A stretch of 64,000 nucleotides of DNA. Origin: Nitrospirota bacterium (lineage in GTDB: Bacteria > Nitrospirota > UBA9217). The stretch covers positions 1-64,000 of the forward strand of contig JAKAHZ010000002.1 of NCBI GenBank assembly GCA_021814615.1, written 5' to 3'. The translations under genes were made by a program, and so were the position numbers. Numbering within the stretch: position 1 is the stretch's first letter; each line of letters opens with the position of its first letter. The notes below the pieces were generated by a model. The model saw nothing but the letters and a program-made list of their open reading frames with translations, was not told where the DNA came from and did no database searches. Below, in pieces: positions 6,859-26,629 of the stretch.

Positions 6859-7650
6859 TCAGAGCAGGCAGGAGAGAACGCTCCGGGCGCAGGCGTTCAC
6901 CAGATTGTCCTCGCCGAGCAGCCTGCCGATCTGCCGGAGCGTCAGCCAGATGAATCCTTCGGGCAACGCACCCACGTCATGGTCGTCCACCAGCACGACC
7001 ATGTTACGGTTCGACTTGAAGAGGAAACGTCCTCCGTCCTCGGTCTGCAGTTTAGCGAACAGGATTCGCTCTTTCGGCGGATCGAGAAACAGCTCGACGA
7101 AGAGCGGCGCGGCCCCGCCGTGAACCAGCGTATAGTTGCTGTACGTGGCCTGCACGGTCGGCGAAAGCTGGACGCCGTGCAAATTGCCGGGCTCTTCCTT
7201 CGCCTGCAAGCAGAAATGCAGGATGCCGTCGATCTTTCTTGCCGCGATCCCGAGGATCCCGATCTCGGGTTGATCGATGATCGGCTGGTCCCAGGTCAGC
7301 TCACCGGCCGGAGACCGGTGCCGTACCCTCACGCCCCTGATGGTGAAGAACCTGCCGGTTTCGTGCCCGATGTTTCCCGTGTCCCCTTCGATGCGCCATC
7401 GCTCAAGCCTGTTGACGGAAACCTCGTCAATGCGCAGTTGCGAGCGGGAGCGCTGCGCTGCGATCCAGTGCCGGACGAAAACATCGTCATGACAGGACCA
7501 CACGACCATGCGGGAAACGGCAAGGTCGACAAGCGTGTCCACGGTGAATCCGAAATCGGGAATCGCCCGGCCGCGGCACTGCTCGGCCAGATGCCGTGCA
7601 AGACGCGACCGGAGGTCCTCAACTTGTTCGGTTCTGGTCTTTTCGTGCAT
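6859..7650 (-). CDS. NDP-hexose 2,3-dehydratase family protein, first half-length subunit
   Basis: GRFFTIRGVRVRHRSPAGELTWDQPII, FCLQAKEEPGN, VQLSPTVQATYSNYT; C-terminus NACARSVLSCLL parallels NSCCRSILACLL of next gene. Confidence 0.82.
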   Translation of the reverse strand: MHEKTRTEQVEDLRSRLARHLAEQCRGRAIPDFGFTVDTLVDLAVSRMVVWSCHDDVFVRHWIAAQRSRSQLRIDEVSVNRLERWRIEGDTGNIGHETGRFFTIRGVRVRHRSPAGELTWDQPIIDQPEIGILGIAARKIDGILHFCLQAKEEPGNLHGVQLSPTVQATYSNYTLVHGGAAPLFVELFLDPPKERILFAKLQTEDGGRFLFKSNRNMVVLVDDHDVGALPEGFIWLTLRQIGRLLGEDNLVNACARSVLSCLL

Positions 7651-8623
7651 TGCTTCCCCGGAAATCCTGGAGGTACGCAATCTGGTCGTCGTTCGCCGGT
7701 CTCGGCATGAGCCGTTCGCGCACCACAAACTGCGGCTCCTTGGCAAGCGACTGATAGATCCTGCCGATATATTCACCGACGATGCTCATCGCCATCAGCA
7801 CGAGGCCTCGAAAGACCAGATTGGCCGACATGAGCGTCTCGTAATTCGAGAGCGCCATCGGAAGCCCCGTCTGATCGAAGGCCTTGATCCCGCCGTACAC
7901 GAGGCCAAAGAGCGTTACGCAGAATCCGACCAGGCCGATGATCCGAAGCGGCACCAGGGAAAAGCTGAATATCATGTTCCCCCAGAGGGTGAAGAGCTTT
8001 CGCAGGGTGTAGCCCGATTCGCTGGCAGCTCGTTTTCCGTGTTCGAGCTGAATAACGCCGATGTTCTGCGTTGACCGCAGGACGATCGCGTCCAGATAGG
8101 GAGTGGGGCCGGTATAGCCGACGATCTCCCGGACGAGGAACCGGTTCAGGATCTTGAAGCTCGACAGGTAGAGCCCCACGGGCTTCTTGAGCACGATGTC
8201 CGCCATCCGGTTGTGCAGCCTGCTCCCGAGATTGCGGAAGAAACCGTCATTCTTGACGGCATAGGACGCGTATACCACGTCATAGCCCTTGCCCATCTCC
8301 CGGACAAGCCTGGCAACTTCCCCGGGCGGATTCTGAAAATCGTCGTCCATGATCACGCAGAAGTCTCCGGTAGCGTGGTGCAGGCCGGCCATGACGGCGT
8401 TGTGCTCGCCGAAGTTTCTCGCCAGTTTAATATAGGCAATGCGGTCCGGGTGTTCGGCATGAAGCCTCCGGCAGACCGCGTCGGAATCGTCGCGGCTGCC
8501 GTCATTGACGAGAATGATATCGAGGCGATAGGCGCCGGCGTAGAGCCCCATAAGCGCCTGGCACAGGGGCCCGATCGTCCTTTCCGAATTGTAGACAGGG
8601 ATTACGATCGAAAGCGATTGCAT
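7619..8623 (-). CDS. Family 2 glycosyltransferase (polyprenyl-phosphate sugar transferase, GtrB/ArnC-like)
   Basis: LSIVIPVYNSERTI, DIILVNDGSRDDS, VIMDDDFQNPP motifs; two C-terminal TM helices; start at MQSLS. Confidence 0.9.
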   Translation of the reverse strand: MQSLSIVIPVYNSERTIGPLCQALMGLYAGAYRLDIILVNDGSRDDSDAVCRRLHAEHPDRIAYIKLARNFGEHNAVMAGLHHATGDFCVIMDDDFQNPPGEVARLVREMGKGYDVVYASYAVKNDGFFRNLGSRLHNRMADIVLKKPVGLYLSSFKILNRFLVREIVGYTGPTPYLDAIVLRSTQNIGVIQLEHGKRAASESGYTLRKLFTLWGNMIFSFSLVPLRIIGLVGFCVTLFGLVYGGIKAFDQTGLPMALSNYETLMSANLVFRGLVLMAMSIVGEYIGRIYQSLAKEPQFVVRERLMPRPANDDQIAYLQDFRGSNARKDQNRTS

Positions 8624-8780
8624 AAGGCAGTTGCGCTCCTTTCTCGTTCCCGGGCCGCATAAACGTTCCGCGTTGCATGCTGACGGCACTCCGGCCACAC
8701 GTGCGGGAGGTCGTCGGACAGCGCGGCGCGGAGACCCTTCGGGTCCGCTTGTCATTGCAGCCGGGGGAAATACTGAACTG

Positions 8781-9230
8781 CTACGAGAGAGGATGGGGAG
8801 GCGACAGTCCTGCGTGAAGGGAGCTGAATCCGTCGGACTCGTGGTGCTTGAGATCCAGCGGCGCATCGGTGATATAAGAAGCAGGGACCGCGGTTTCTGC
8901 AAGAGCCGGAAACGTTCGGACAACGGAAACGGGCGGCGTCACTGCCAGTTGTTCACGCAAAACCGCCCGTTTCTTCTTGATGAGAAAATGCTCGGGATCC
9001 GGAGCAGCGACCGCGGAGGGCGAGGCAGCATTGTCACCGTCATCCTCCTGCAGCTCGGACAAGAGTACGTCGACCCAGACGATGCCCACCGTGTAGTGAG
9101 AAAGATGCTCTCGTTGATTGTGGAGGCGGTCGGTACAGCCGACCGTAGCGGACGCGTAGATCGGGGAAAGAGCATAGATTCCGTAGATAAACAGAAGAAG
9201 AATGCGTATGGCCAACGGCGCGCGAAGCAT
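8781..9230 (-). CDS. Uncharacterised small protein, paralog A of a three-member family in this window
   Basis: N-terminal hydrophobic helix, ALSPIYASA, VGIVWV, FLIKKKRAVL, C-terminal GLSPPHPLS; same layout at 21525 and 24703. Confidence 0.75.
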   Translation of the reverse strand: MLRAPLAIRILLLFIYGIYALSPIYASATVGCTDRLHNQREHLSHYTVGIVWVDVLLSELQEDDGDNAASPSAVAAPDPEHFLIKKKRAVLREQLAVTPPVSVVRTFPALAETAVPASYITDAPLDLKHHESDGFSSLHAGLSPPHPLS

Positions 9231-9235
9231 GGGGT

Positions 9236-9264
9236 ATTTTACTGTGGGTTTGCTCCTTTGGCAA
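9236..9264 (-). promoter_or_regulatory. Sigma70-type promoter of paralog A, predicted leaderless
   Basis: Minus strand TTGCCA-N17-TAAAAT-acccc-ATG. Confidence 0.6.
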
Positions 9265-9492: not shown

Positions 9493-9508
9493 TGGCACGG
9501 CTTATGCT
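9493..9508 (+). promoter_or_regulatory. Sigma54 (-24/-12) promoter
   Basis: TGGCACG-GCTT-ATGCT with GG/GC 12-nt register. Confidence 0.65.
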
Positions 9509-9682
9509 ATTTACTGGGACAAAGGCGATCGAATCCCTGTAACGGCACACCGGCCCCCCGGCCGGCATCGGTCAGGATGCAAAACCTCTGGGCTGCGAAA
9601 GGAGATGAAATGCTTTTCAGCCCCTGCCGATCGTCCCGACAGGTCGTAGAATAATACATTCCCGAAAGGAAAGGTGACTGCA

Positions 9683-10042
9683 ATGAAACACGTTCTCTCT
9701 CTAATAGGCGTTTTGGCTATGACATTGACTGCAGGAATCGTTTATGCTGACGACGATGCCCTCATGATGACTGATCATCGTCCTGTACCGGCTGTTGCTG
9801 CCGAAGGATTCACCTCCGTAATTCCCGCTGACGTGACCGCCCAGGCGAGTGATGAGCTCCCGATCATCGGGTTCGCTACCCCGGATATCGGCACCGTGCT
9901 CTACCAGGATGAGTTCGTCGTCGAGACGGCTGGCTCCGCTGCAGGCGGCGTTCGGAAAACGTCCACTGACACGCGGAACGCCCGGAATGTGGAAATCTGG
10001 GACAATCTTCTCGGACAGCCCGGCGGCTCCGACCTGCCGTAA
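9683..10042 (+). CDS. Small secreted protein of unknown function
   Basis: Signal peptide MKHVLSLIGVLAMTLTAGIVYADD; RBS aggaaagg; downstream of sigma54 promoter. Confidence 0.6.
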   Translation: MKHVLSLIGVLAMTLTAGIVYADDDALMMTDHRPVPAVAAEGFTSVIPADVTAQASDELPIIGFATPDIGTVLYQDEFVVETAGSAAGGVRKTSTDTRNARNVEIWDNLLGQPGGSDLP

Positions 10043-10299: not shown

Positions 10300-11508
10300 T
10301 CATTTGTTGTCCTCATCCACCGCCTTCTTGACCATCTCCAGGATGCCGGGAATTGCCGCGGTGACCCGGTTCCAGTTCGGGATGAGCGGCGTGCCCATGG
10401 GGCTCTCCATGAATATGGCTGAAGCCTGGACCATGGCGCGCGTGAAGGCCTCCACGGCCTTGGCCTCCTCGTGGCGGTCGAAGACGAGGCCGTTGATCGC
10501 CGCGTCTGCCTCGTACTTGAGCAGCGTGTCCTCGGCGTTGCGAAGATAGGCGACGGACAGGGACTTGAAGAACCCGTCGGAGAAGATCACGCCCTCCGAA
10601 GCAAGGGTACGGAAGATGGATTTGCAGATATCGATGGTCATCTTCATCAGGCCCTGTTCGGGATCCTCCGCAGAGAGCGCCTGGTGCTTGTGCTCGTAGG
10701 TCGCCGCGATGTCCACCTGACAGACCCGGCGGGGCGAGTAGTTCCGGTATACCTCGGCCAGGGACCCCACCTCGAGCCCCCAGTCCCAGGGGATGCGGTT
10801 CACGCGCGCCAGATCGGTGATCATGGCGAACTCGCCCGAAAGCGGGTACCGGAAGCTGTCCAGAAACGCCAGGAACCGGTGCGGCCCGACGAGATGCTGG
10901 AGCGACCGGACCAGCGGCGTTACCAGGAGCCGCGTGACCCTGCCGTGCATCTTGTTCGTCACCCTGCTGTAGAATCCCTTGCAGAAGACGTAATCCAGGT
11001 TCGGATGCGCGACGGGGTAGCAGAGACGCGCGAGCATCTCGCGATTGTAGTTCACGATGTCGCAATCATGGAGCGCGATCATGTCCGACTGCCCCCGCGC
11101 CAACACATACCCGTAGGCAAGCCACGCGGACCGTCCCTTGCCGCGCTGTCCCGCGTCCAGCCCGTTCCTGGCCAGGGTCTCGTAGATCTCCACGATCCGC
11201 TTGCCGTCGTTATGGATGACCTTGACCTCCGTCCGGATCGGCGACAGAAACTGCCGCGCGCGGTCAAACTCTTTCGGCGAAGCCTTGTCCAGGACAAGAA
11301 CGACCTCGCGGAGATAATCCACCTTGGACAGCTCCTGCACGATGCCCGGCATGGCAGGCCCTTCGAATTCCGAATAGAGCGCGGGCAGCACCAGCGCCAT
11401 CGGCCGAACGCGGCTGAATTCCCGGAGCTCCGCTTCGAGCCGTTCCAGCGATTGTTTCCCGATTTGATGCAACGTCGTGATGATCCCCGTCTGGTAGAAG
11501 TCGGACAT
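10300..11508 (-). CDS. Glucosyl-3-phosphoglycerate synthase-like glycosyltransferase (GT81/GT2)
   Basis: ALVLPALYSEFEGPAMPGIVQEL, MIALHDCDIVNYNREMLARLCYPV, PLSGEFAM, WGLEVGSLAE motifs. Confidence 0.75.
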   Translation of the reverse strand: MSDFYQTGIITTLHQIGKQSLERLEAELREFSRVRPMALVLPALYSEFEGPAMPGIVQELSKVDYLREVVLVLDKASPKEFDRARQFLSPIRTEVKVIHNDGKRIVEIYETLARNGLDAGQRGKGRSAWLAYGYVLARGQSDMIALHDCDIVNYNREMLARLCYPVAHPNLDYVFCKGFYSRVTNKMHGRVTRLLVTPLVRSLQHLVGPHRFLAFLDSFRYPLSGEFAMITDLARVNRIPWDWGLEVGSLAEVYRNYSPRRVCQVDIAATYEHKHQALSAEDPEQGLMKMTIDICKSIFRTLASEGVIFSDGFFKSLSVAYLRNAEDTLLKYEADAAINGLVFDRHEEAKAVEAFTRAMVQASAIFMESPMGTPLIPNWNRVTAAIPGILEMVKKAVDEDNK

Positions 11509-11676
11509 GGCCGTCCTCGAAACCCTTTCTGCCGCAAAGTCTCAAAGACGCAAAGAACATTTCGCCAAAAGCCAAAGCATTGGATGTTGCTGTCCTTCGC
11601 GTATCAGCGCCTTCGAGCCGGATGGCATCCGGCCTCTCTTTGAGCCTTCGCGCCTTCGCGGCGAAGATGTCTTCAT

Positions 11677-11834
11677 TCTAGAACCTATCTCATAATAGAC
11701 TTGCAATAATAGTTCGTCATGCCCGCGGAAGCGGGCATCCAGGAAACGTCAGAAAACCCCTGGATTCCCGTTTTCACGGGAATGACCATCAAACAAACAA
11801 AGCATCAGGATTTGATTTTGAGATAGGTTCTAGA
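11677..11834. mobile_element. MITE-like element with 16-bp perfect terminal inverted repeats
   Basis: TCTAGAACCTATCTCA ... TGAGATAGGTTCTAGA; internal gtcatgcccgcggaagcgggcat / ggattcccgttttcacgggaatgac repeats. Confidence 0.75.
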
Positions 11835-12540
11835 CATGTTCGATGTCCTGCTGCTCTTCCTTCCCTGCTTCCCGCCGCGTCTCGCGCTCGATGATCCGCT
11901 TTGCCGCGTCGATGCCGCCGACGCCGAAGGCAATGGCCAGGGCGGCCACGATGCCGCCGAAGATGATCGAAAACGCCGCCAGCACGATGCCCGGCGCAAC
12001 CCTGAGCTCCTCCAGGACCATGGCGAGAATCAGAACCGTCAGGAGCAGCCGGATCGACTCGGCCAGGAGCTTTGCCGCGCGGAATCCGCTGTTCACCGCC
12101 GTGATCAGGACGGCCCTGCTCAGGAAACCGGTGAACACGTACCCGACGACCAGGATGATCGACGCGGAAAGGGCGCGCGGCAGATACTGAAGGAACTGGG
12201 CGATCAGCTGATCGATCGCCGGGACCTTGAGTGCGCTCATGCCGGCGGTCAGGGTGCCGATGATCAGAAGCCAGAAGACGACCGCGGCGAGCGCCAGGGA
12301 GGGCTTTGCCCACAAGTCCCCCTTCCGCAGCATCGACGTCACGCCGATCCGGTCGGCCCAGCTGTCGAAATCAATGGCCTTCAGAAACCGGATGAGCAGC
12401 GCGCGGGAGATCCGCGCCGCGATGATCCCCAGGATCAGGATGACCAGCATGGCAAGCAGATTCGGCAAAAAGGCCGCGAATTTGCCGAACAGCTCGTTCA
12501 ACGGTTCGACGATGAGATTCAGAAAGTCCTTCATAGGCAC
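11830..12540 (-). CDS. Mechanosensitive-channel-like conserved TM helix protein
   Basis: Repeated hydrophobic helices with VILILGIIAARISRAL and IILVVGYVFTGFLSRA typical of MscS-type TM helix family. Confidence 0.7.
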   Translation of the reverse strand: MPMKDFLNLIVEPLNELFGKFAAFLPNLLAMLVILILGIIAARISRALLIRFLKAIDFDSWADRIGVTSMLRKGDLWAKPSLALAAVVFWLLIIGTLTAGMSALKVPAIDQLIAQFLQYLPRALSASIILVVGYVFTGFLSRAVLITAVNSGFRAAKLLAESIRLLLTVLILAMVLEELRVAPGIVLAAFSIIFGGIVAALAIAFGVGGIDAAKRIIERETRREAGKEEQQDIEHV

Positions 12541-12549
12541 CTCCCAGGT

Positions 12550-13809
12550 TCATTGCCAACGGGCGATCAGATAGTCCTTTGCCCGTTCAAACTCGCTGCA
12601 GAGTTTTTCGATCAACGCCTCCGCGTCCTCCTGCCCGAGACTCTCCGCCTCCAGGATGAACGACGCGGTCTTGCCCAGGTAGAGCGGCGTGAGCGATTTA
12701 AGGAGATGCTCGGCGGACAGCTGTTTTCGATGGTACGCGATGGCGTAGTCGTAGATGATGCGGGTCCAGAGCGACGGGGGAAAACGGAATTCCCGGTCCG
12801 GCAGCTCCGCGAGCCGCGTCACTTCAATCAAATCGCCCTTGCCGAGCACGTCCGACCAGATCTCCGTCAGGTTCCGCACTCCTTCGCGGAACACGCCGGT
12901 CATGCGGCCCACGTTCACCTGCACCGGCTCGAGGCCCACGGTATATTCGAACCCGAAGGAAGGGACCGCGTCCACGGTCCGGACGTCCCGCCAGATCGGG
13001 TGATAGGCTTCCATGAGCCCGAAGGCCGCGCTCACGACTTGGTAGAGCATGACCGAGAGATCGGAGCCGGGGTCCTTGGCATCGTGGATCTTGGCGCCCA
13101 GAAAGGATTGGGCCACGGAAAACCGATTCGCGATCGCCGTCGTGGTCATCCAGATGTCGATCCCGAAGCGGGCAACATCGGTCTGCCAGACGTCCTGCGC
13201 CAGATAGAAGGACGCCAGCTTGCCGGAGAATCCGAAATCGCCGCCGATGGGCTGGCGCACGCATTTCCCGTAAAGCGCGCGGGTGAGCGGATACACAATG
13301 CTGTTGGTGATGGTGCCGTCGTATTTGTGCCGGTGATAGAGGGGGGCGACGAACTCGGCCTCCCCGTTCAGGACTGGACGGATGAGCAGCTCGATCCATT
13401 CGGGCGTGATGCTCCGGAGATCGGAATCCACCACCGCGCAGGCCTTTGCCCCGAGGGCATCGGCAATCTCGAAGACGGCGCGGAACGCGCTCCCCTTGCC
13501 GGGAGGCCCGGTATAGGGCATGGCAATCACCGGCGTCGGATCAACGCGGTGATGCAGGAGCAGCGCCGCTTGATCCTCGATCCGCGTCCTCCGCACCACG
13601 TCCATGGTGCCGTCGCGGGACCCGCCGTCGGAATTCACCAGCACCGCCTTCCGGTTGGGGAAATATTTTGCCAGCCCTGCCTGAATCGCCCTGACCACAT
13701 GCCCGATCGTCCGGGCATTGTTATAGCTCGGGATGCCGACCAGGATGTCGGCGGAGCCGATCTGGTCCAGGAATGTCCTGACCTCCTGCCGCTGGGTGAT
13801 CTGTGCCAT
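12550..13809 (-). CDS. Family 2 glycosyltransferase (glucosyl/mannosylglycerate synthase-like)
   Basis: ADILVGIPSYNNARTIGHVV, VLVNSDGGSRDGT, AVVDSDLRSITPEW motifs. Confidence 0.75.
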   Translation of the reverse strand: MAQITQRQEVRTFLDQIGSADILVGIPSYNNARTIGHVVRAIQAGLAKYFPNRKAVLVNSDGGSRDGTMDVVRRTRIEDQAALLLHHRVDPTPVIAMPYTGPPGKGSAFRAVFEIADALGAKACAVVDSDLRSITPEWIELLIRPVLNGEAEFVAPLYHRHKYDGTITNSIVYPLTRALYGKCVRQPIGGDFGFSGKLASFYLAQDVWQTDVARFGIDIWMTTTAIANRFSVAQSFLGAKIHDAKDPGSDLSVMLYQVVSAAFGLMEAYHPIWRDVRTVDAVPSFGFEYTVGLEPVQVNVGRMTGVFREGVRNLTEIWSDVLGKGDLIEVTRLAELPDREFRFPPSLWTRIIYDYAIAYHRKQLSAEHLLKSLTPLYLGKTASFILEAESLGQEDAEALIEKLCSEFERAKDYLIARWQ

Positions 13810-13865
13810 GGCGCCGTGCCTCTGTATCAAGTATACCGGGCGATGCGGGCCTGCGGGCGAAATGC

Positions 13866-15227
13866 CTACTTTTCGATGATGATGATCTGAAGATCCATCA
13901 CGTTCGTTCCCGTGGGACCGGGCTTGAAGTGCGCCTGTCCGCCGCTCGCCGCATCGAGCCGCTGCAAGTACCTGTAGGAATCGTTGTCCGCGAGAAAAGC
14001 GTCTGCGTCAAGTCCGTGCTCGCGGCCCTGCCGGATCGTCTCCCCGTCCACGAACGCGCCTGCAGCATCGGTCGGCCCGTCGGTGCCGTCGGTGCCTGAG
14101 GAGAGCAAGGCGATCCCCGGAACGCCTGCGATCTCGGCCGCAAAGGCAAGGGCCAGCTCCTGGTTTCGCCCTCCCTTGCCCGATCCCGCAACCCGCACCG
14201 TGGTCTCCCCGCCGGACAGCAGGCAGCGGCGTTCTCCCGGCTTCAACGCCTCGCGCGATTTGCGGGCGGCTTGCGCGAGGAACTTCGCCGCCTCGCGCAC
14301 ATCGCCCCGGAGCTCTGTCGTTACGATCTCCGGCAGGAAGCCCTGCCTGCCTGCTTCCTCCCGGGCTGCTTCCATCGCCTGGCTGAGCCCGCCCACGATA
14401 ATGGCCCGGGCCTTCCCGAAGCACGCCTCTCCCTCTTTCGGCGTTTCGGGGACAAAGCCTGATATGCCCCGCATGAGACGATTTCGGACGGCGACCGGCA
14501 CGGCATCGGCAAGTCCGTATTTCCCGATCACCTCCCAGGCCTGACGGAACGTCGACGGATCGGGAACCGTCGGCCCCGAGGCGATAACGTCGAGCCGGTC
14601 GCCGAGCACATCGGAAAGGATCAGGGTGATCAGCGGGGCAGGCGCGATCTTCCGTGCCAGCAGCCCGCCCTTGACCGCGGAGAGATGCTTTCGCACCGCG
14701 TTCAGCTCGTCGATCGACGCCCCGGCCCGCAGAAGCAGGTTCGTCGCGTTTTGCTTGTCTTCGAGACGGATTCCGTCGGCTGGCGCGACAAGCAGCGAAG
14801 AACCGCCGCCGGAAAGAAGACAGAGAACAAGGGTCCGCTCATCGGCGCGTTCGGCGAGCTCCAGGATCCGGGCTGTTCCTTCCACGCCTGCCGTATCCGG
14901 AATCGGATGACCGGCCTCGACCTGCTCAATCCTCCCGAGCTTGCCCGCATGACCGTGTTTCACGATGATGAGGCCGTCGGAGATGCGACCTCCGAGCAGG
15001 ATTTCAACAGCCTCAGCCATGGCTGCCGTTGCTTTCCCCGCTCCGATCACGAGTACGCGCTGGAAGGCGGCCAGATCATCCTGCCTTTCCGCCGCGATGA
15101 GCCGGCCGTTCCGCAGCTGCAGCGCCTTTTGAACGGCAGCGGATGGATCAACCGCAGCGATCGCAGCGCGCCAGATGCCGGTGAGTTCCTTGGTCCTCTG
15201 CATTGGCTTCGTGAGCCGTCCTTTCAT
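13866..15227 (-). CDS. Glycerate 2-kinase, GckA/MOFRL family
   Basis: VLVIGAGKATAAMAEA, LLSGGGSSLL, LSGGETTVRVAGSGKGGRNQELAL, GTDGTDGPTDAAGA. Confidence 0.93.
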   Translation of the reverse strand: MKGRLTKPMQRTKELTGIWRAAIAAVDPSAAVQKALQLRNGRLIAAERQDDLAAFQRVLVIGAGKATAAMAEAVEILLGGRISDGLIIVKHGHAGKLGRIEQVEAGHPIPDTAGVEGTARILELAERADERTLVLCLLSGGGSSLLVAPADGIRLEDKQNATNLLLRAGASIDELNAVRKHLSAVKGGLLARKIAPAPLITLILSDVLGDRLDVIASGPTVPDPSTFRQAWEVIGKYGLADAVPVAVRNRLMRGISGFVPETPKEGEACFGKARAIIVGGLSQAMEAAREEAGRQGFLPEIVTTELRGDVREAAKFLAQAARKSREALKPGERRCLLSGGETTVRVAGSGKGGRNQELALAFAAEIAGVPGIALLSSGTDGTDGPTDAAGAFVDGETIRQGREHGLDADAFLADNDSYRYLQRLDAASGGQAHFKPGPTGTNVMDLQIIIIEK

Positions 15228-16033
15228 CGACCTCTTCCCTGATCCAGGAGTTTCAGCACGGCCTCGTTCCAGCCCGCCGGTCCCTCCCTGCCGGTCTGCA
15301 GAAGGCCGGGAAACGAGAACTGCTCGCGCTGCGCCTCCGGCGGTTTCCTCACCAGCACCGGCCGGTCGACAACGAGAAGAAACGGCAGGTCATTCAGGTT
15401 GTCGCCCATTCCCACGGTAGTGAGCGAGCCGAAGCGCCGGGCGTAAAGTCTGGAGAGCATCGTCACGGCGCGCCCCTTGTGGTGGTCGCCCATGATATGA
15501 AAGAACCGTCCCCGCGTCCAGCGAAGCCCCGCTCCCTCGATTTCCCGCAGGAAGAGATCGTCCGCTCCCGCCTCGAACACGAAGGGCTCGCTGAACTCGC
15601 GCTGCCGGGCGAGCACCGCCTCTTCCCGCGGCAGGTTCGTGAGAACCATGACCTCTTCGGCCGTCATATCGCCGAATCCGCGCACGGCTGCGCCCAGCCG
15701 CAGTCGCAGATCCGCGAACCGCCGCCGAATACTCTCGTAGGGCGTCCCCAGGGAGATCACGTCGTAGCCTTCCCGCGGTATGCCTTCCAGGGGAAAGGGG
15801 AAATAGCCTTTCGGAACGAAGATCCCTCCGCCGTTCTCGGAAATGAAGGGATGCTGATTGCCGAGTCGCGCTCGCCAAACTTCGATCTCGGCCCTCGTCT
15901 TGCTTGACACGAGAACAAGGGGAATCTCCCGCTTCCTGATCAGCTCCAGCGCCTTGCTCGCCTGCTCGAAGGAATACGTCGACGGGTCCAGCAACGTTCC
16001 GTCGAGGTCGGAAAAAATAACCGTCCGGTTCAT
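15224..16033 (-). CDS. HAD-IIB mannosyl/glucosyl-3-phosphoglycerate phosphatase
   Basis: VIFSDLDGTLLDP, SSKTRAEIE, SENGGGIFVP, GRFFHIMGDHHKGRA, GMGDNLNDLPFL. Confidence 0.88.
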   Translation of the reverse strand: MNRTVIFSDLDGTLLDPSTYSFEQASKALELIRKREIPLVLVSSKTRAEIEVWRARLGNQHPFISENGGGIFVPKGYFPFPLEGIPREGYDVISLGTPYESIRRRFADLRLRLGAAVRGFGDMTAEEVMVLTNLPREEAVLARQREFSEPFVFEAGADDLFLREIEGAGLRWTRGRFFHIMGDHHKGRAVTMLSRLYARRFGSLTTVGMGDNLNDLPFLLVVDRPVLVRKPPEAQREQFSFPGLLQTGREGPAGWNEAVLKLLDQGRGR

Positions 16034-17046
16034 TATTTTGTCTCCCGCAACGCGTAGAGAAGATACATGTTGAATCCGTAACCTGCAATCAGCGCGATGG
16101 CATCCCATCCCAGGCGCAGGAAGATCTTCTTTTCGAGCCGGTACGTGAGACTGATCATCGTGATTCCCGTCATGATCACCGCCATGAACGCGGTGATGGC
16201 ATGATTCTGCGACACGGAGGACAGGAGCGACCCGCGGAGATAGAACAGGTCGTCAACTGCGAGAATGAATATGTTGAACAGATTGCTTCCGAGCAGGTTC
16301 CCGATGGCCATATCGGCGGCACCGATCCGGAGAGCAACAAGGGAAACGACCAGTTCGGGAAGCGACGTGGTCATTGCCACGAATATGGTGCCGATAAAAC
16401 TTCTCCCCAGTCCCGTCTCCACAGCAAGACGGTCCCCGAGAAAGGGCAGCCACAGGGCCGCGAAGACGACGACCGCGGCGTTCAGCGCGTACTTGGTCGC
16501 CGTCTCCCGGACGGAAAGATGGTCATAGCGGGCGGCCTCGGCGATCTCGCCGACAAAGGTCGCGATCTTTTTCTTGTTGAAGAGAAATACGCTCCGCATG
16601 CCGATGCCGTAGATCACAATGATCGCGGGTGTATACATGCCGATCCAGCCGATCGGGGGGAGCTGGTCGTGCGCCAGGATCGAAACGGCGGCAACACCGA
16701 TCAGGACCACCCCGAAGCCGGCGGAAAGAACATGTCCGTGCTCGGCCTTGGAAAAGATGGGCGCCGGACCGTGCATGATATCCATGAGCGATATGATCGC
16801 CAGGTTGAAAACGCAGCTGCCCATGATGTCGCCCAGGGCGATATCGGGAGCATCCGCTATGGTGACCGAGCTGAGGCCGGTGATAAGTTCGGGCAGCGAT
16901 GTCACGCTCGCCATGAGGATAAGGCCGATCCAGGCGCGTCCGAGCCCGCTTTTTTCCGCGATCACATCGCCGTAGCGCGCCAGGTTCATCCCTCCGTAAA
17001 CGATCAGCCCGGAGCACAGGGCGAACTCAATCCAGGTCAGAGCCAT
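16033..17046 (-). CDS. CaCA-family sodium/calcium exchanger-like transporter
   Basis: SVTSLPELITGLSS...GDIMGSCVFNL and TSLPELVVSLVAL...GNLLGSNLFN alpha repeats. Confidence 0.88.
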   Translation of the reverse strand: MALTWIEFALCSGLIVYGGMNLARYGDVIAEKSGLGRAWIGLILMASVTSLPELITGLSSVTIADAPDIALGDIMGSCVFNLAIISLMDIMHGPAPIFSKAEHGHVLSAGFGVVLIGVAAVSILAHDQLPPIGWIGMYTPAIIVIYGIGMRSVFLFNKKKIATFVGEIAEAARYDHLSVRETATKYALNAAVVVFAALWLPFLGDRLAVETGLGRSFIGTIFVAMTTSLPELVVSLVALRIGAADMAIGNLLGSNLFNIFILAVDDLFYLRGSLLSSVSQNHAITAFMAVIMTGITMISLTYRLEKKIFLRLGWDAIALIAGYGFNMYLLYALRETK

Positions 17047-18295
17047 GGTCCTCCTTCCTTCCGCCGTGCGCTGTTGGCGATGCATCCGACCGACTGCGTC
17101 CTGCGGCTTCGCGCAGCATGAAACGCATGGCCAGGGGCGCAAGCAGCGTCGTCAGCGCGACGACGAAGACCACGACGGCATAGGACGCATCGTCGAAGAT
17201 CGCGCTCCGCTTCCCCACTTCGGCAAAGATGAGCCCGACCTCGCCGCGCGGAACCATGGCGATTCCCGTCGAGAGTTTTTCCCTGAATCCGCCCGGCGCC
17301 CATATGCCGCTCGCCATTTTGCTTACCACGGCGACGACCGTCAGGACGCCGGCGAATCCCCAGAATGCGCCCGATGTCATGTCGATGGCCCGCAGGTTGA
17401 TCGAGACGCCGACCATGACAAAGAAGACCGGCACAAAGAGATCGATGATCGGCGTCATGCTTGCCTCAAGCTGCTCGGCAAGCCGATGGCTGTAATGGTC
17501 GATGCTCGCTCCCAGAGGGAGAAAGAACCGTCGCGCCAAAGCTATGCCCGCGGCAAAGGAGCCCAGGATCTCGGGAGCGCCCACGCGGTGCGAAATGACC
17601 GCAAGTCCGAGGATCAGCGATACGATCAGCGTCGGGATCATCCCCTTGGTCCGGCCCGAATCGGCCAGTCTCGCCAGAAGGGGCACGAACAGCTTGGCGA
17701 TCACCGGCGCGAGAATGAGAAAGATGAGAATAAAAACGAGGATCCGCAAGGTCGCTGCGATGCTGACGGTCCCCTGCACCGCAAAATCGTAGAGTACCGC
17801 CAGAACCACCACCCCGATCACGTCATCCAAGACCGCCGCGCCCAGCACAATGCGCGCCATGCGGCCGGTATGCCGGTTCAAATCCTTGAGCACGCGCACC
17901 GTGATGCCGATGCTCGTGGCCACGATCGTACCTCCGACAAAGAGCGCGGGGATCGTCGCCATGCCGAACCCATAGCGGGACACCCAATAGCCGAAGGCGC
18001 CGGGGACAACGACTCCCGTCACGGCGACCAGCGTCGACCGGACGCCCTCCTTCACGAGCTGCCCCACATCCGTCTCGAGCCCCACCTCGAAGAGCAGCAG
18101 CAGGATCCCGATCTCCGCGAGCAGGTGCAAAGGCGTTTCGGGCGCGACAAAGCCCAGGACGCTGGGACCGATCACCAGCCCCGCAACCACCTCGCCCAGC
18201 ACCGACGGAATCGCCAGCCGGCTGGCGGACTCCGCGAACAGCTTGGCGGCCAGGAGGATCACCAGCAGTTTGAGAAAGAAATCGGAAGCCTCCAT
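17027..18295 (-). CDS. CPA2-family cation:proton antiporter
   Basis: VLGEVVAGLVIGPSVLG, LLLFEVGLE, VLDDVIGVVVLA motifs; multi-TM. Confidence 0.9.
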   Translation of the reverse strand: MEASDFFLKLLVILLAAKLFAESASRLAIPSVLGEVVAGLVIGPSVLGFVAPETPLHLLAEIGILLLLFEVGLETDVGQLVKEGVRSTLVAVTGVVVPGAFGYWVSRYGFGMATIPALFVGGTIVATSIGITVRVLKDLNRHTGRMARIVLGAAVLDDVIGVVVLAVLYDFAVQGTVSIAATLRILVFILIFLILAPVIAKLFVPLLARLADSGRTKGMIPTLIVSLILGLAVISHRVGAPEILGSFAAGIALARRFFLPLGASIDHYSHRLAEQLEASMTPIIDLFVPVFFVMVGVSINLRAIDMTSGAFWGFAGVLTVVAVVSKMASGIWAPGGFREKLSTGIAMVPRGEVGLIFAEVGKRSAIFDDASYAVVVFVVALTTLLAPLAMRFMLREAAGRSRSDASPTAHGGRKEDHGSDLD

Positions 18296-18480
18296 CGCGC
18301 CTGCACCCCCCCTGTACAAAACAAAAAAGGCCGGCAGAAGCATTTGTCATGCCCTTTGCCAGCCCCCTTTCCCGCGAAACAGCTTTTCGCGAGCGCGTCA
18401 GTCCGCCAAAAAACCCTATGTTCGCTTTTAGTATACGCACGAGAGCATCCCCTGTCAACTGCGTGGATTGTTCCTCGGCA

Positions 18481-19488
18481 TTATCTCTCATTGACGACGT
18501 GTCCCGGAATTGCCTTGCAGACCACAAACCAGAACAGGAACGGTGCGGCGATTCCGAATCCCCGGACGGTCCACATCACCGTAATCAGTGAAGGCTGATC
18601 CAAACCGCTCGCAAAAGCCACCGCGTATGCGGCGAGGGTTGCACTATGCTGAACACATAACAATCCGACGGCCAAAGCTCCGCGTTGAGCCGCTGTTGCT
18701 CCCTGGTTGAAGGGAAGGGAACCGCCGACGAGAGCGGCAACAATGATGCCGTTAAAAACCTCAAAAAACAGATCCACGTGCAGGATGCCGCCGGCCGTGC
18801 GCAACAGCACTACTCGCCCCCGGCTCGCGACCTCCAGCCCTGCGCTTGCTCCCGCTCCCACGATGTGCAGCAGCCCGTTCGTTGCCGCAGCAATACACCG
18901 CGCATAATCGTCGATTGCCAGAAGCATCAGCCCCAAAGCGCAGAGGCCGGCAAGAACCGACAAACCGACGGCCTTCGCGGTTTTTCTCGTGATTCGGACG
19001 CTTCTCGCAACCCAGAGATACCAGGTGACGAACACGGCGACGGCAAAAACGCCTTGCAGCAGGTAGGCATGGACGAGATCAAAGAGATTTCGCGCATAGT
19101 TCCCGACCATGCCAAGCACGCCGATACGGATGATATTCATCGAAAAGACCACCGCGACGCCCGCTGCTATGCCGACGCCGCGATACGCTCGGGAATATGC
19201 CGGATGCGCGACAACACCGGCGCTGAATATCGCCAGGTAATGCAAGGCCGTGCACTCGTGCGTAATTTCCATGGGAAAGGCAAACAGCGTCAGATAGGGC
19301 CCCGACTGCGCAACGGGGCCCGCAAAAAGCCCCCAGAATCGCGCAGCGACGCCGGCGGTGAAGCTGTTCAGCCAGGCAAGCGAAAGCAGCTGCGCAAGCG
19401 CCAGGAATGCGGTCGCATAGAGGGCGAACAGAAGAACGAATCGTCCGTTCAGACTGACGGCCTCCCAAGTGTCTGCATGGTTCCGCAT
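18481..19488 (-). CDS. Exosortase/archaeosortase-family protein
   Basis: Multi-TM with THECTALHY (Cys), NIIRIGVLGMVGNYA (Arg), LFDLVHAYLLQ (His) in exosortase order; RBS ggaggggaggag. Confidence 0.72.
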   Translation of the reverse strand: MRNHADTWEAVSLNGRFVLLFALYATAFLALAQLLSLAWLNSFTAGVAARFWGLFAGPVAQSGPYLTLFAFPMEITHECTALHYLAIFSAGVVAHPAYSRAYRGVGIAAGVAVVFSMNIIRIGVLGMVGNYARNLFDLVHAYLLQGVFAVAVFVTWYLWVARSVRITRKTAKAVGLSVLAGLCALGLMLLAIDDYARCIAAATNGLLHIVGAGASAGLEVASRGRVVLLRTAGGILHVDLFFEVFNGIIVAALVGGSLPFNQGATAAQRGALAVGLLCVQHSATLAAYAVAFASGLDQPSLITVMWTVRGFGIAAPFLFWFVVCKAIPGHVVNER

Positions 19489-19598
19489 AGGACTCCTCCC
19501 CTCCTTTCCCGGCAGTGGCACCCGAGACCCGCGGTCGATGAATGCCGATCCGCACGGGCCGGGAGAAACCTCCCGCCCGCCGGATCGACTTGCTCTCT

Positions 19599-21302
19599 CT
19601 AGCGTGTTTCAGCCCGCTTCTTGCGACTCCGCTGGGTAACGAAAAGCACCATGCCGGCGGCAAGGACTGCATAGACATACGCATTTCCGGCTGGTGACTG
19701 TGTTACGCCCGCAGGCGGTGCACCTGTTCCGACCGTGGACGAGACCGTGCTGCTCGTAACCGCCCCGTGGTTCGCATCCGCTGCCGTGGTAACGCTGGTT
19801 GTCGTGCTGGATCCGTTCGCCGCGCCCGCCGTCGCGCTGACCGTGAGATTCGTCGTCTGGAAGGATCCCCCCGTGATGGGGCCGATCGTCGCTGCCAGCG
19901 TCGAGGCGTTGAAATTCGCGTTGGGCGCTGCAGGAACATCGGCGGACGACAACGCAAAGGTCGTGTCCGCGCAGGACGCACTGTCATTGTTCGTAACCTG
20001 GACAACGTAGGTGATCGATCCGCCCGGAGCCAGGGTTTGCGAGGCCGGCGACAGGGTTATCGCGGGATTCGCCCGGGTGCAGACCGGGGCAGAGATGGTC
20101 AACGTGGCCGATGCCGTATCGCTGTAGGTCGGCGTTCCGAGGGTTCCGGACGCGCCCGTGACCCGCGCGCCCAGAGTGTTCCCGACGGTCGCGCCCGACG
20201 CTATATTCGCGGTGATGAGATAGTTCGCGGTCGCTGTGGAAACGTTCTCCGGCGACGTGAAGGTCACCGTGGCCGTTCCCGCTCCGATCGAGAACGAACT
20301 CGGGACCAACGTATCGACGCCTGCGTCATATACGCCGAGCGTGCCGGCATCCAGGTAAACGCCGATATTCGTCACATTTGCCGCCGTGAACTGCGCGCTC
20401 GTCGTGAGCGTGAGGGTGTTGATCTGACCGGCGCCGGACGACATGGCCGTGGTGAAGCTGTCGATTGCATTGTTGGTCGAGCCCTGCTGAGCGTTCGCAT
20501 TTGCCACTGACGCGCCGTCGCCGACGGTAAGATTGCCGGAAGCGCCGGATGCGGGATTGATGGTCGTGAACGCGAGACCGGCATAGGTGTTACCGGTCCA
20601 GGTGAGTGCCGGTCCCGTTGCGCCGGCGCTGGGAAAGGATTTAACGGCCACGCAGGAATACGCGGTGCCGACCGTTTGAGGCGTGTTCCCGGTGTATGAT
20701 TCGTTGTTCGTGGGAGCCCCGGCCAGGCTCTGGGTGGATCCGAAGATGCCGTATCCGCCCGCGTTGACGTTGAGCGTGCCGAGCGTGACGGATGCCGTAT
20801 TGCTGTTGTAGATCTGGTAGGTCCCGTTGATCGGGGTCGTCTGGTCCACGCCCGCGAGCGTTGCGATATATACGCTCATTCCGCTTCCCACGTTGTTGTT
20901 TGTCACAGTGACGGTAGTTCCCGACGCGGCGGCGATGTCGGATTCGTTGAGGTAAAAGAACCAGCTCTGCCTTCGTTGATTATTCGGCGAGTTCACGATC
21001 GCGCGAGCGGGAATGTTATTGGTTCCGTAGGAGACAGTGATCGTCGTTGCCGTCGTGTTGTTGGTGTGATCGTGAACGCTGATCAGGACGATCCTGTTCG
21101 AACCCGCCGAGGGCGTGAACGACGTCGTGGCGGGTGATGCGGCGACATTGGCGATCTGAGGCGCGGCAGGCCAGGGATCCAGCTCCGATACGGCGGCTTG
21201 AGCCTGTTGCGGGGCAATCCATCCCGTCGACGCCAGCGCGCAGAAGACGGCGGCCAGCAGCAGGATAACTATGTGTCGATTGTTCCGTGTATATTCGTTC
21301 AT
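19599..21302 (-). CDS. Secreted surface protein with C-terminal sorting-signal-like tail, candidate exosortase substrate
   Basis: Signal peptide; Thr/Ser/Ala-rich repeats; C-terminus SPAGNAYVYAVLAAGMVLFVTQRSRKKRAETR (motif-TM-basic). Confidence 0.72.
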   Translation of the reverse strand: MNEYTRNNRHIVILLLAAVFCALASTGWIAPQQAQAAVSELDPWPAAPQIANVAASPATTSFTPSAGSNRIVLISVHDHTNNTTATTITVSYGTNNIPARAIVNSPNNQRRQSWFFYLNESDIAAASGTTVTVTNNNVGSGMSVYIATLAGVDQTTPINGTYQIYNSNTASVTLGTLNVNAGGYGIFGSTQSLAGAPTNNESYTGNTPQTVGTAYSCVAVKSFPSAGATGPALTWTGNTYAGLAFTTINPASGASGNLTVGDGASVANANAQQGSTNNAIDSFTTAMSSGAGQINTLTLTTSAQFTAANVTNIGVYLDAGTLGVYDAGVDTLVPSSFSIGAGTATVTFTSPENVSTATANYLITANIASGATVGNTLGARVTGASGTLGTPTYSDTASATLTISAPVCTRANPAITLSPASQTLAPGGSITYVVQVTNNDSASCADTTFALSSADVPAAPNANFNASTLAATIGPITGGSFQTTNLTVSATAGAANGSSTTTSVTTAADANHGAVTSSTVSSTVGTGAPPAGVTQSPAGNAYVYAVLAAGMVLFVTQRSRKKRAETR

Positions 21303-21524: not shown

Positions 21525-21983
21525 CTAGGAAAGCAACGCGGGGGGAGACAAGCCGGTATTCAGTACGAGATAGCCGTCAGTTTCACGCAGGAGCGGGGCC
21601 GGTGTTTCGCGGAAAATAACGGATGCCGTTTCCGTCTCAAAACTGCTCTGAGGAAGAATGAGGATCCTGATGGTTGGTCTGAGGTCGAGGCGCTGGCGCA
21701 CGATGGTGCGTTTCTTCCTGACCAGCACAATATCTCCGTCCTGCTGTGTACCGATGGCCTGGGTGTCGCCGGAAGGAGGCTCATAAGCGTCGTCATCATC
21801 GGACAGACAGGCAAAAATAATGTTCTCCCAGACAATATCGGAGGGGGAATGCTTGACCGCCTTGCCGGACTTCGTCCCGAAGCACTGCCCCGCACCGACG
21901 GCGTACATGGACACCGGAGTCAGTGCATAGAGAGCATAGAAAAGGAAAAAAATCCGACCGATTACGCGCGTTTTATGCAGCAT
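21525..21983 (-). CDS. Uncharacterised small protein, paralog B
   Basis: YALYALTPVSMYA, DIVWENI, IVLVRKKRTIVRQRL, C-terminal GLSPPALLS. Confidence 0.72.
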   Translation of the reverse strand: MLHKTRVIGRIFFLFYALYALTPVSMYAVGAGQCFGTKSGKAVKHSPSDIVWENIIFACLSDDDDAYEPPSGDTQAIGTQQDGDIVLVRKKRTIVRQRLDLRPTIRILILPQSSFETETASVIFRETPAPLLRETDGYLVLNTGLSPPALLS

Positions 21984-22058: not shown

Positions 22059-23846
22059 TCACGCCAGCCCGCCCTCTTTCCGGAGGACCTCCCGGTTGTA
22101 CGCCGCGATCACGTCCCTGCGCCGCACCATGCCGATGACGCTTTTCGAACCTGCCTCCCGCACCACGGGAATCTCCTCGATATCCTTGACCGAGAACTTT
22201 TCCATGGCCTTGTTCAAATCATCGTCAGGCGTGAGCACCATCACCTTTTCCGTGGCGATGTCCCCCGCATTCACGATGCGGGTGATCCGTTCCTCGAGCA
22301 GCACGGGACGCACGTCGTGGATGGAAACGATCCCCAGGAGGTCGCCCGACGCATCGACCACGGGGAGATAAAACCGCTCCTGCTCGACCATGATCTCCAG
22401 CAGACGGCGCAACGGCGTCTTGGGCAGGACCGTCGTTACGTCGGAAACCATGACCTGGGCGACCTTGATGCGGCCCATGACCGATCGTTCCTTGCCCGCA
22501 TGAAGCCGGATGCCTCTTCTCGCGAGTTCCGCCGTGTCGATGGAGTCATGGTACAGGCGTTTTGCGATCATGGTGCCGATGATGGCGCTGAACATGAGCG
22601 GGACAATGATCCGATAGTTGCCCGTCATTTCAAAGAGCAGGAATATGCCGGTGAGCGGAGCATGGGTTGCCGCTGCCAGGAACGCGCCGATCCCCACGGT
22701 CGCATAGGCGCCGGGAGTCGCCGTTGCCTGGGGGAACAGGGCATGCGCCACATACCCGAAACTGCCGCCGGTCATTGCTCCGATGAAAAGCGCCGGCGCA
22801 AACACGCCGCCCGCTCCGCCGGAACCCAGGGTGATGGATGTGGCCGCGATCTTCATGAGCACCAGGAGGGCCAGGACGGGAAAGAGCATGTCTTGTCGCA
22901 GCGCCGACTCAATGACGCCGTAGCCGTTTCCCATGACCTGCGGCAGGAATATGCCGATGCACCCCACCAGAAACGCTCCAAGGACGGGCTTCAGTTGCGG
23001 ATGGAGCCTCAGGGCGTCGAACTCGTCCTTCAGACGATAGAAGGTCCGGATATAGAAGACAGCGGCCAGACCGGTGACCACGCCGAGCAGGAGATAGAGC
23101 GGGAGTTCAGCGATACTCTGGAGCTCGTACTGCGGAACAAGGAACGCGGGATTGGCCCCGTAGTAACCGCGGGAGACTACCGTCGCCATGCCCGAGGCGA
23201 TCACAATGGCGGCGAAGGAAGCGATCTCGTAATCGCCGAGCAGCACGATCTCGGTGGCGAACATGACGCCGGCAATCGGCGCGTTGAAGGTTGCGGCAAT
23301 GCCGGCCGCCGACCCGGCTGCGATCAGGAGCTTCGTGCGGCCTTCCGATGTGCCGAGGAAGCGCCCGACCGCTGAGCCCACGGTCCCGCCGATGATGGCG
23401 ATCGGCCCTTCGACGCCCGCCGAACCGCCGGAGCCGATGGTAAGCGCCGGCCCGAGGATCTTGAGCATGATATTCCGGAGTTTCAGGAACCCGCCCCGGA
23501 TGTTCACCGCTTCGAGAAAGCCTGCGAATCCGTACCCGTTCACTTCGCCGGGAAAGCGGAGGGACAGGGGAATGAGCAAGAACGCGCCGGTCATGGGCAG
23601 AAGCGGGAGGAGCAGGCTGCGCCAGCCTCCCGATGCGACACCGAGCAACCGGGACCCCTGCTCGAACACGACCATATGGACGAAATGGAGGGTGGAACGG
23701 AACAGGATGTTCGCTGCAGCGGCCAGGAGCCCGACTATGACGGAGGAGAACACGAGGAACATGCCTTCGTTCGCCCGCATGTCCGCTCCCAGGCCCTGGA
23801 CCCGGCGCAGCATCTTCCTCAAGTGCGTGGACACGTCATCATTCAT
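22059..23846 (-). CDS. ClC-family chloride channel/transporter with C-terminal CBS pair
   Basis: GSGGSAGVEGPIAIIGG, FNAPIAGVMFATE, GSGGAGGVFAPALF; CBS domains at C-terminus. Confidence 0.93.
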   Translation of the reverse strand: MNDDVSTHLRKMLRRVQGLGADMRANEGMFLVFSSVIVGLLAAAANILFRSTLHFVHMVVFEQGSRLLGVASGGWRSLLLPLLPMTGAFLLIPLSLRFPGEVNGYGFAGFLEAVNIRGGFLKLRNIMLKILGPALTIGSGGSAGVEGPIAIIGGTVGSAVGRFLGTSEGRTKLLIAAGSAAGIAATFNAPIAGVMFATEIVLLGDYEIASFAAIVIASGMATVVSRGYYGANPAFLVPQYELQSIAELPLYLLLGVVTGLAAVFYIRTFYRLKDEFDALRLHPQLKPVLGAFLVGCIGIFLPQVMGNGYGVIESALRQDMLFPVLALLVLMKIAATSITLGSGGAGGVFAPALFIGAMTGGSFGYVAHALFPQATATPGAYATVGIGAFLAAATHAPLTGIFLLFEMTGNYRIIVPLMFSAIIGTMIAKRLYHDSIDTAELARRGIRLHAGKERSVMGRIKVAQVMVSDVTTVLPKTPLRRLLEIMVEQERFYLPVVDASGDLLGIVSIHDVRPVLLEERITRIVNAGDIATEKVMVLTPDDDLNKAMEKFSVKDIEEIPVVREAGSKSVIGMVRRRDVIAAYNREVLRKEGGLA

Positions 23847-24044: not shown

Positions 24045-24593
24045 CTATTGCGCCACGAAATCGTCGCGCCGGTTCTTCTGCCAGCATGCGTCCGTATCCT
24101 CGGTGCACGCAGGCTTTTCCTTCCCGTAGCTGACAAGCGAAATGCGCTTCGCCGTGATCCCCATGGCGGTCAGATACTTCTTTGCCGATGAGCTCCGGCG
24201 CTGCCCGAGCGCCTGATTGTATTCGATGGTGCCGCGGTCGTCGCAGTTCCCTTCGATGGAGATCTTCATCTTCGGATTTGCCTTGAGATACTCCGCGTTC
24301 GCCTTCATTGCCGCCTTCGCGTCCTCCCGGATCGTTGCGCGGTCATAATCGAAATATACGGCCTGCAGGCCTGCGTTGGCGCGTGCCGCGGCCTCCTTTG
24401 CCTGTTCCTCCTCCGCTTTCCGCGCGGCGGTCGGTTCGCTGCTTTTCGCTCCCTCGGCAGCCGCAGGCGCGGGCGCGGCCGCCACCTTCTGAGCCTCCGG
24501 CGTGGAACTTACTTCCGTTTTCTTGGGACAGCCGGCAAGGACGACAAGTCCGAGACCGGCGATCATCATCAGAAACCAATGCGTCATCTTCAT
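24045..24593 (-). CDS. pal: Peptidoglycan-associated lipoprotein (OmpA-family)
   Basis: Lipobox VVLAGC; VYFDYDRATIREDAK, IEGNCDDRGTIEYNQALGQRRS. Confidence 0.93.
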   Translation of the reverse strand: MKMTHWFLMMIAGLGLVVLAGCPKKTEVSSTPEAQKVAAAPAPAAAEGAKSSEPTAARKAEEEQAKEAAARANAGLQAVYFDYDRATIREDAKAAMKANAEYLKANPKMKISIEGNCDDRGTIEYNQALGQRRSSSAKKYLTAMGITAKRISLVSYGKEKPACTEDTDACWQKNRRDDFVAQ

Positions 24594-24702
24594 GCGATCC
24601 TCCTTTGATCGGTTGTTCCGGGGCGTCGACCGGCGTCCGCGCGCCGCGTACGGCGGCGGAGCGTCATCGTCTCCGGAAGGATGGGACTGATGCGTTGCGA
24701 TA

Positions 24703-25143
24703 TCAGAGGAACAGAGGAGGAGAAAGGCCGAGGTGGCGCGACAGCGCCTGATCATCATAGGGAGAAAAGAGATGCAGGGAAATCTCGCGTGCCCGCGGAG
24801 GCAGGCCCTGCATGTTCAATCCATCGGCACGTACCGTCGCTCCGAACAGCGGCTCGATGCGAAGCGAATCGGGAAGGACCGCCCGTTTCTTCTTGATGAG
24901 GATGAATTCACCGTCCCGATCATCGGGGTCCCCGCTCTCGATGGCGGGCCGCTCCGGCCGGTCATGATCGACCAGGGAGGCAAGCAGCGCATTGACCCAG
25001 ACGATTCCCACGGTCACGCCTGACCCTCCCGCCGTCAAATCGCTTCTCCCGACAAAGGCGGAAGCATAGATCGGCGAGACGGCATAGACGGAATACAGCA
25101 GGAAGACGACAACCTGAACCGCATATTTTATTCGCGCGTTCAT
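24703..25143 (-). CDS. Uncharacterised small protein, paralog C
   Basis: YAVSPIYASAFVG, VTVGIVWVNALLASL, FILIKKKRAVLPDSL, C-terminal LGLSPPLFL. Confidence 0.75.
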   Translation of the reverse strand: MNARIKYAVQVVVFLLYSVYAVSPIYASAFVGRSDLTAGGSGVTVGIVWVNALLASLVDHDRPERPAIESGDPDDRDGEFILIKKKRAVLPDSLRIEPLFGATVRADGLNMQGLPPRAREISLHLFSPYDDQALSRHLGLSPPLFL

Positions 25144-25179: not shown

Positions 25180-25325
25180 GTAATTTCTCCCGCCCCGCCG
25201 TTTTCCGCGGCTGCGTGAATCCCTTCGGTTTTTCGGGCTGTCCGTCCCGATCCGCGATCTTCCCGGATTCTGCTGCCCGCGATTCACTCTTGCCTGACGT
25301 TATTCCCTGTGATATATTACGACTC

Positions 25326-25700: not shown

Positions 25701-25702
25701 GC

Positions 25703-26572: not shown

Positions 26573-26629
26573 CCCTGCCGACGATGGATTCGCCCCGTCT
26601 CGCCGATCTCATCTTCCGAGGAGGAACGC

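Follow-up and report, generated by a model that had tools for sequence, protein, structure and literature searches.

A phylum-wide family of small exported proteins in Nitrospirota and its probable role as cis-acting nascent-chain leaders

Three small proteins are encoded on the minus strand of a 64,000-nucleotide stretch of a Nitrospirota genome (contig JAKAHZ010000002.1, positions 1 to 64,000; hereafter the window). Each lies ahead of a different set of genes, and they probably serve in cis, as exported nascent-chain leaders of the arrest type represented by SecM and CutF, rather than as structural envelope proteins. Both the stalling and the sensed signal in this reading are what we infer. 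A cis-acting leader is favored because of the position at the head of operons, a Pro-Pro pair next to the stop codon, a long structured gap before the following gene, codons complementary to the Shine-Dalgarno (SD) sequence of that gene, and a protein predicted to be disordered. The family is real, undescribed and distributed across the phylum and, by analogy, it most likely constitutes a new non-metal branch of CutF/SecM-like control. The relevant features of the window are as follows.

8781..9230, minus strand: leader A, an exported or anchored small protein of 149 aa with the C-terminus HAGLSPPHPLS, directly before a sugar operon
8796..8804, minus strand: SPP codons of leader A (TCG CCT CCC), proposed pause site and anti-SD, from the pairing and accessibility computation
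8624..8780, minus strand: structured gap of 157 nt between leader A and the glycosyltransferase gene, with SD AAGGAG near its 3' end
7619..8623, minus strand: GT2 polyprenyl-type glycosyltransferase (MQSLSIVIPVYN..), first gene downstream of leader A
Down to 3989: NDP-hexose 2,3-dehydratase, Gfo/Idh and DegT genes after this glycosyltransferase, named from the homologous operon in L070/L057 (PF00535, PF03559, PF01041)
21525..21983, minus strand: leader B, 152 aa, C-terminus NTGLSPPALLS
21540..21548, minus strand: SPP codons of leader B (TCT CCC CCC), for which SD pairing is not predicted (link 0.03)
19599..21302, minus strand: exported surface-type protein with a C-terminal transmembrane (TM) segment and basic tail, a putative exosortase substrate, first downstream of leader B
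18481..19521, minus strand: exosortase-family protein, second downstream of leader B (the L058 homolog matches PF09721 and TIGR04178)
24703..25143, minus strand: leader C, 146 aa, C-terminus HLGLSPPLFL
24715..24723, minus strand: SPP codons of leader C (TCT CCT CCT), anti-SD by computed SD pairing and proposed pause site
24599..24604, minus strand: SD AGGAGG of the Pal gene, predicted from accessibility to be sequestered by the SPP codons of leader C
24045..24593, minus strand: Pal peptidoglycan-associated lipoprotein, downstream of leader C (the L081 homolog scores above the TIGR02802 cutoff)

An earlier sequence-only reading had described the three open reading frames as homologs of no known family that share a hydrophobic N-terminus ending in (A)(L/V)(S/T)P, an IVW motif, an acidic patch, KKR and GLSPP. 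All of these motifs are present, and the similarity is far above chance: leader C is 39% identical to A (E=1.9e-16) and 28% identical to B (E=5.7e-8). Pfam and NCBIfam scans of the three window proteins returned only sub-threshold matches to CcmB over about 24 residues, and a CcmB identity was dismissed as noise. The single hit in a Pfam scan of 42 members (E=0.002) was judged to be chance, and a PDB search matched no solved structure. No fourth paralog was found in the source genome (94% complete), which carries leaders A, B and C only. A search of a literature collection found nothing on a GLSPP arrest motif or on arrest peptides in osmoadaptation.

The same reading regarded the proteins as a lineage-specific envelope family, of which the undescribed small-protein family and the export or membrane-targeting N-terminus stood. 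A profile built from the three sequences recovered relatives within the same GTDB family only, a consequence of its low sensitivity. An 11-member profile raised the count to about 49 members, spread over 39 of 396 Nitrospirota genomes, and a 42-member profile matched 55 of the 396 genomes, in 33 of 170 genera across the phylum and with at most four copies per genome, the second-round members being recruited by a profile that includes the SPP motif. Restriction to one lineage was thereby ruled out. The envelope function is probably wrong as well, since the features described below fit a cis-acting regulatory leader better.

Members share a common layout, consisting of a short basic start, a hydrophobic helix ending in YAxSP(L/I), a variable acidic part, K(K)xRA, an unconserved linker, SG(L)SPP and a short tail. 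The helix ending in SP was found in nearly all members, as judged by sequence and hydropathy. A C-terminal [G/A]x(S/A/P)PP is present in 47 of 48 distinct first-round members, and in 44 it is followed by a tail of just 1-6 residues before the stop. Pairwise identity among members is often near 20%; at this level, the only invariant columns of the 42-member alignment are P144 and P145, with M1, P23, K86, G141 and S143 nearly invariant. Mean column conservation is 0.91 at the end motif, 0.55 in the helix and at KKKRA, and 0.23 in the linker just upstream. The sequence-only reading, which listed GLSPP as one shared motif among several and allowed that it might not be conserved in orthologs, understated it: GLSPP is strongly kept, and together with the K86 lysine it survives where overall identity falls to about 20%. 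The distance from K86 to P144 is 57-58 in 28 of 42 members and 56-60 in 37, despite the unconserved residues between them, and the P23-to-K86 spacing is looser (53-68). In five close pairs dN/dS was 0.29-0.54, indicating purifying selection on the coding frame and thus that the leader frame is translated and selected. An AlphaFold2 model, based on an alignment of five sequences, placed little outside the N-terminal helix above 70 pLDDT, and the rest is predicted to be disordered.

A sorting signal of the LPXTG or PEP-CTERM type was ruled out for GLSPP, as mostly 1-6 residues follow SPP and these include neither a TM segment nor a basic tail. In five members another hydrophobic segment lies between K(K)xRA and SPP (L059 5098-5664, L078 5002-5568, L064 1865-2290, L087 5016-5480 and L090 5071-5541). 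Their sequences suggest that these variants may be membrane-inserted rather than exported leaders, a difference comparable to that between MifM and SecM. The copy at L088 2831-3199 is missing the SGLSPP end (frameshifted or degenerate) and has no conserved operon behind it.

In 66 of 71 members the leader and the next gene share a strand, against the 79% expected from neighbor pairs (p=0.0017); the other five have no same-strand next gene. The gap between leader and next gene has a median of 137 nt (quartiles 102-193), compared with 28 nt for ordinary same-strand neighbors. Upstream, the neighbor is divergent in 35 of 68 members. A same-strand upstream gene lies within 60 nt in 8 of the 68, and therefore not all leaders clearly head a transcript. 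The downstream genes fall into classes that recur across the phylum:

Pal lipoprotein (TIGR02802), as for leader C; this arrangement recurs in about 11 loci
Glycosyltransferase, then NDP-hexose 2,3-dehydratase (PF03559) and DegT aminotransferase, as for leader A
Surface protein and exosortase (PF09721), as for leader B
Glucosyl-3-phosphoglycerate synthase (GpgS; NF040724 is the best hit, below its curated cutoff)
DUF5752 with trehalose synthase, an OtsA-like protein and trehalose phosphatase
M23, SLT or amidase wall enzymes with MscS
CBS protein and an ArsB/NhaD-type ion transporter (held-out members)

The codons of the S-P-P motif follow TCN-CCN-CCN, and the serine is encoded by TCN in 44 of 44 members, never by AGY. 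CCT is used at each proline in 24 of 47 members against a background of 23% (p=1.4e-5), and UCNCCUCC is complementary to the SD. The complementarity of these codons to the SD of the next gene was absent from the earlier reading. The third base of the codon before the serine is T in 32 of 47 members, though the encoded residue varies (Leu, His, Arg, Asn, Ile, Val). The conserved Gly, two positions ahead of the Ser, is encoded with all four third bases, and Pro-Pro is invariant though the first Pro codon differs from CCT in 23 of 47. Because Pro-Pro is invariant despite an imperfect CCU anti-SD in half of the members, selection must act on the encoded residues and the RNA alike.

We compared the predicted folding of native leader ends with synonymously recoded versions, with start codons of the downstream genes set by rule. 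Mean SD accessibility was 0.17 for native sequences and 0.25 after recoding (p=2e-5, n=42), and direct SPP-SD pairing was 0.52 and 0.25, respectively (p=1e-4, n=42), with p-values that overstate independence as the members are related to one another. Seventeen held-out members replicated both differences, for accessibility (0.14 versus 0.25 recoded, p=2.5e-4) and for pairing (0.45 versus 0.23, p=0.017). When a 27-nt ribosome footprint was masked on SPP, SD accessibility was 0.29, compared with 0.17 for a footprint placed elsewhere (p=4e-6). As masking removes pairing partners, a comparison of stalled with free leaders is biased when taken alone, and both the recoding and the displaced footprints were therefore included as controls.

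RNA support was strong for leader C, where SD accessibility rose from 0.04 in the free state to 0.63 with a ribosome on SPP, and pairing was 0.91 versus 0.18 in shuffled sequences. It was moderate for leader A (accessibility 0.14 to 0.37; pairing 0.29 versus 0.05 shuffled). Single-sequence folding did not support SD pairing for leader B and several other members. In consensus folding of ortholog groups, whose gaps are poorly alignable, the SPP-SD helix was kept only in a two-sequence exosortase group and a two-sequence Pal group. The leader-GpgS gap of L075 carries an inverted repeat (GCCCCCTCTTAAATTAAGAGGGGG) in its loop, with the SPP-SD ends intact; the repeat is absent from the close relatives L063 and L089.

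These features suggest a mechanism in which the leader would be a Sec-targeted nascent chain and the ribosome, within a few codons of the stop, would pause at the C-terminal SG(L)SPP. In the computed folds, the UCN-CCU-CCN codons of S-P-P pair with the SD of the next gene, about 140 nt further on, and would hide it. A ribosome resting on SPP would cover the anti-SD, leaving the SD free and the downstream operon on; pulling on the chain by export would end the pause, and the SD would be hidden again. The likely sensor element is K(K)xRA with the preceding acidic patch. The ribosome tunnel holds about 30-35 residues and the SecYEG channel about 20-25. As the distance of about 58 residues from K(K)xRA to the first proline approximates the tunnel plus the channel, K(K)xRA may be in or at the translocon when this proline is in the P site. 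The regulated operons suggest that the signal is osmotic, ionic or envelope/export stress.

The anatomy shared with CutF, SecM and CruR, along with the computed SD switch, is the basis for regarding these proteins as nascent-chain leaders that pause at SPP. CutF is exported co-translationally and carries a proline motif at its C-terminus, and the cutO SD is masked by a stem-loop (PMC9973294). Like CutF of Rhodobacter capsulatus and the CutF-like proteins, family members are small Sec-exported proteins that head an operon and end in a proline motif (PMC9973294). The SD of the next gene is likewise predicted to be hidden by an anti-SD, a feature that is statistical for the family, strong in C, moderate in A and not seen in B. 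Relatives found here also resemble CutF-like proteins in preceding OEP/HlyD/RND and HupE/UreJ genes. Unlike CutF, the window members have no Cys/His metal motif and no Pfam match, the anti-SD resides in the SPP codons of the leader themselves, and the downstream genes have osmoadaptation and envelope functions.

CruR, a DUF2946 protein of Bordetella pertussis, carries RAPP three residues from its end, at a fixed distance from its CxxC (PMC9426467). The family shares with it an exported upstream ORF product, an xxPP close to the stop, a fixed spacing between sensor and PP, and a long gap (PMC9426467). In contrast, RAPP and CxxC are lacking from the family, the spacing is about 58 rather than the 45 of CruR, and SD hiding is computed here whereas Rho termination has been shown for CruR. 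The DUF2946 profile did not match any of 42 members or three His-rich relatives.

In SecM, arrest at RAGP opens a stem-loop over the secA SD (PMC10987492). The SD stem-loop of the present family is similar, with its opening by a stalled ribosome computed or inferred. As with SecM, VemP, MifM, ApdA/ApdP and the RQH peptides, members combine a localization signal with a motif that ends in Pro near the stop (PMC10987492, PMC12992588). They differ from the RAPP-like (RQH) peptides in that G-L-S-P-P has no Arg (GRSPP or GHSPP occurs in a few members) and in that secA, secDF or yidC was not encountered among the identified downstream genes. No motif of the RAPP, RGPP, HAPP or QAPP type was found, and members carry G[L/H/R/I/N/V/M](S/A/P)PP instead. 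The residue at the position of the Arg of RAP is mostly Leu, and also His, Arg, Ile, Asn, Val or Met. The Arg was irreplaceable in mutagenesis of ApcA, ApdA and ApdP (PMC12992588). Judged by analogy, Leu at this position would be a point against arrest, but it has precedent: an LPPP class precedes secA in Planctomycetota, and LAGP is among the SecM-cluster motifs (PMC10987492). RSPP is on the published list of arrest-motif queries and LSPP is not (PMC10987492).

Several of these observations could also arise from translational coupling without programmed arrest, in which translation of the leader melts the anti-SD/SD pairing, SPP is kept only as anti-SD RNA, and the protein is incidental. The invariable TCN serine, the enrichment of CCT at both prolines, the preference for T at the third base of a codon whose residue varies (consistent with an RNA-level constraint), and the statistical support for pairing in the 42 members and 17 held-out members would all be expected. 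We nevertheless consider coupling unlikely, as it accounts neither for a Pro-Pro that is invariant where the first Pro codon is not CCT nor for a Gly conserved with all four third bases, and it has no need of protein-level features such as the export signal, K86 and a near-constant distance from K86 to the prolines. The view of the sequence-only reading, that this is an ordinary secreted or inner-membrane-anchored envelope family in which GLSPP is an interaction or processing motif, agrees with the N-terminal signal or TM helix, the purifying selection and the envelope genes nearby. It leaves unexplained why 1-6 residues separate the motif from the stop, why the genes sit as leaders ahead of long gaps, why the codons form an anti-SD, and why His/Cys-rich middles before metal-efflux operons carry the same C-terminus; the protein is also predicted to be largely disordered, and no TM segment follows GLSPP. 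We regard it as quite improbable.

Control of the CruR type, with a ribosome paused at SPP blocking Rho or an attenuator in the gap, would make transcription elongation the regulated step and SD pairing secondary. The layout of CruR is the same (an exported protein, RAPP three residues before the end, fixed spacing and a 162-nt gap; PMC9426467), the gaps of the Nitrospirota leaders are similar in length, and some such mechanism would be required in members such as copy B, for which no SD pairing is predicted. Native codons hide the SD beyond synonymous sequences, which points to translation initiation, and control at elongation is thus very unlikely in our estimate. An exported nascent-chain leader with an SD switch remains our preferred reading.

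The distant members L132, L138, L142, L147 and L128 keep the signal sequence and the SGLSPP end around His/Cys-rich middles. A Cys/His metal-binding motif, absent from the window members, is present in L132, L138, L142 and L147. Downstream of these relatives are genes for OEP, CusB-type HlyD and RND proteins, a gene for HupE/UreJ, or a locus that includes a cation-diffusion transporter. CutF-like metal sensors are reported from the same genomic surroundings (PMC9973294), and the relatives probably belong to the published CutF-like set. A plasmid search with a His-rich relative gave no match. The sensor part varies with the operon and the C-terminal end is constant. A tentative extension, to which we give somewhat less than even chances, is a modular superfamily of nascent-chain sensors in which the signal sequence and the SG(L)SPP end are both fixed and the codons of that end would serve as arrest site and anti-SD at once. 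The middles would be interchangeable, His/Cys-rich for metals and acidic with KxRA for osmotic, ionic or envelope stress, and wired separately before many operons in up to four copies per genome. If this modular reading is true, control of osmoadaptation (compatible solutes, MscS, ion antiporters and exopolymer export) by translation-arrest leaders would be seen for the first time in the acidic/KxRA group.

The arrest-peptide leaders known so far concern protein export and copper. If true, a non-metal branch spanning the phylum would bring a new class of signal within the reach of nascent-chain sensing and provide a genetic element whose stall codons and anti-SD occupy the same nucleotides. 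It would also hint at coordination of osmolyte, cell-wall and surface functions in environmental Nitrospirota. For poorly studied bacteria the family offers a search signature: a small exported ORF ending in SG-x-SPP, a gap of about 140 nt, and CCUCC complementary to the next SD.

By gene content, 10300-18343 and 22059-23846, between leaders A and C, form a dense osmoadaptation cluster. It encodes a GpgS-type glucosyl-3-phosphoglycerate synthase, an MscS-like channel, a second GpgS-like glycosyltransferase, a MOFRL glycerate kinase, a HAD protein resembling phosphoglycerate-sugar phosphatases, a CPA antiporter and, as we take them to be from sequence recognition, a CaCA antiporter and a ClC channel. 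Parts of this cluster have a GLSPP leader in front of them in other genomes. Divergent from leader A, a sigma54-like site (TGGCACGGCTTATGCT, 9493-9508, plus strand) is visible upstream of a small exported-protein gene (9674-10042, plus strand), and the sigma54 context proposed earlier for this gene is plausible. Divergent from leader C, 25215-28881 encodes a ModE-like regulator and, after it, a tandem pair of tungstate/molybdate-type binding proteins, a permease and an ATPase, an arrangement that is likewise found in L020.
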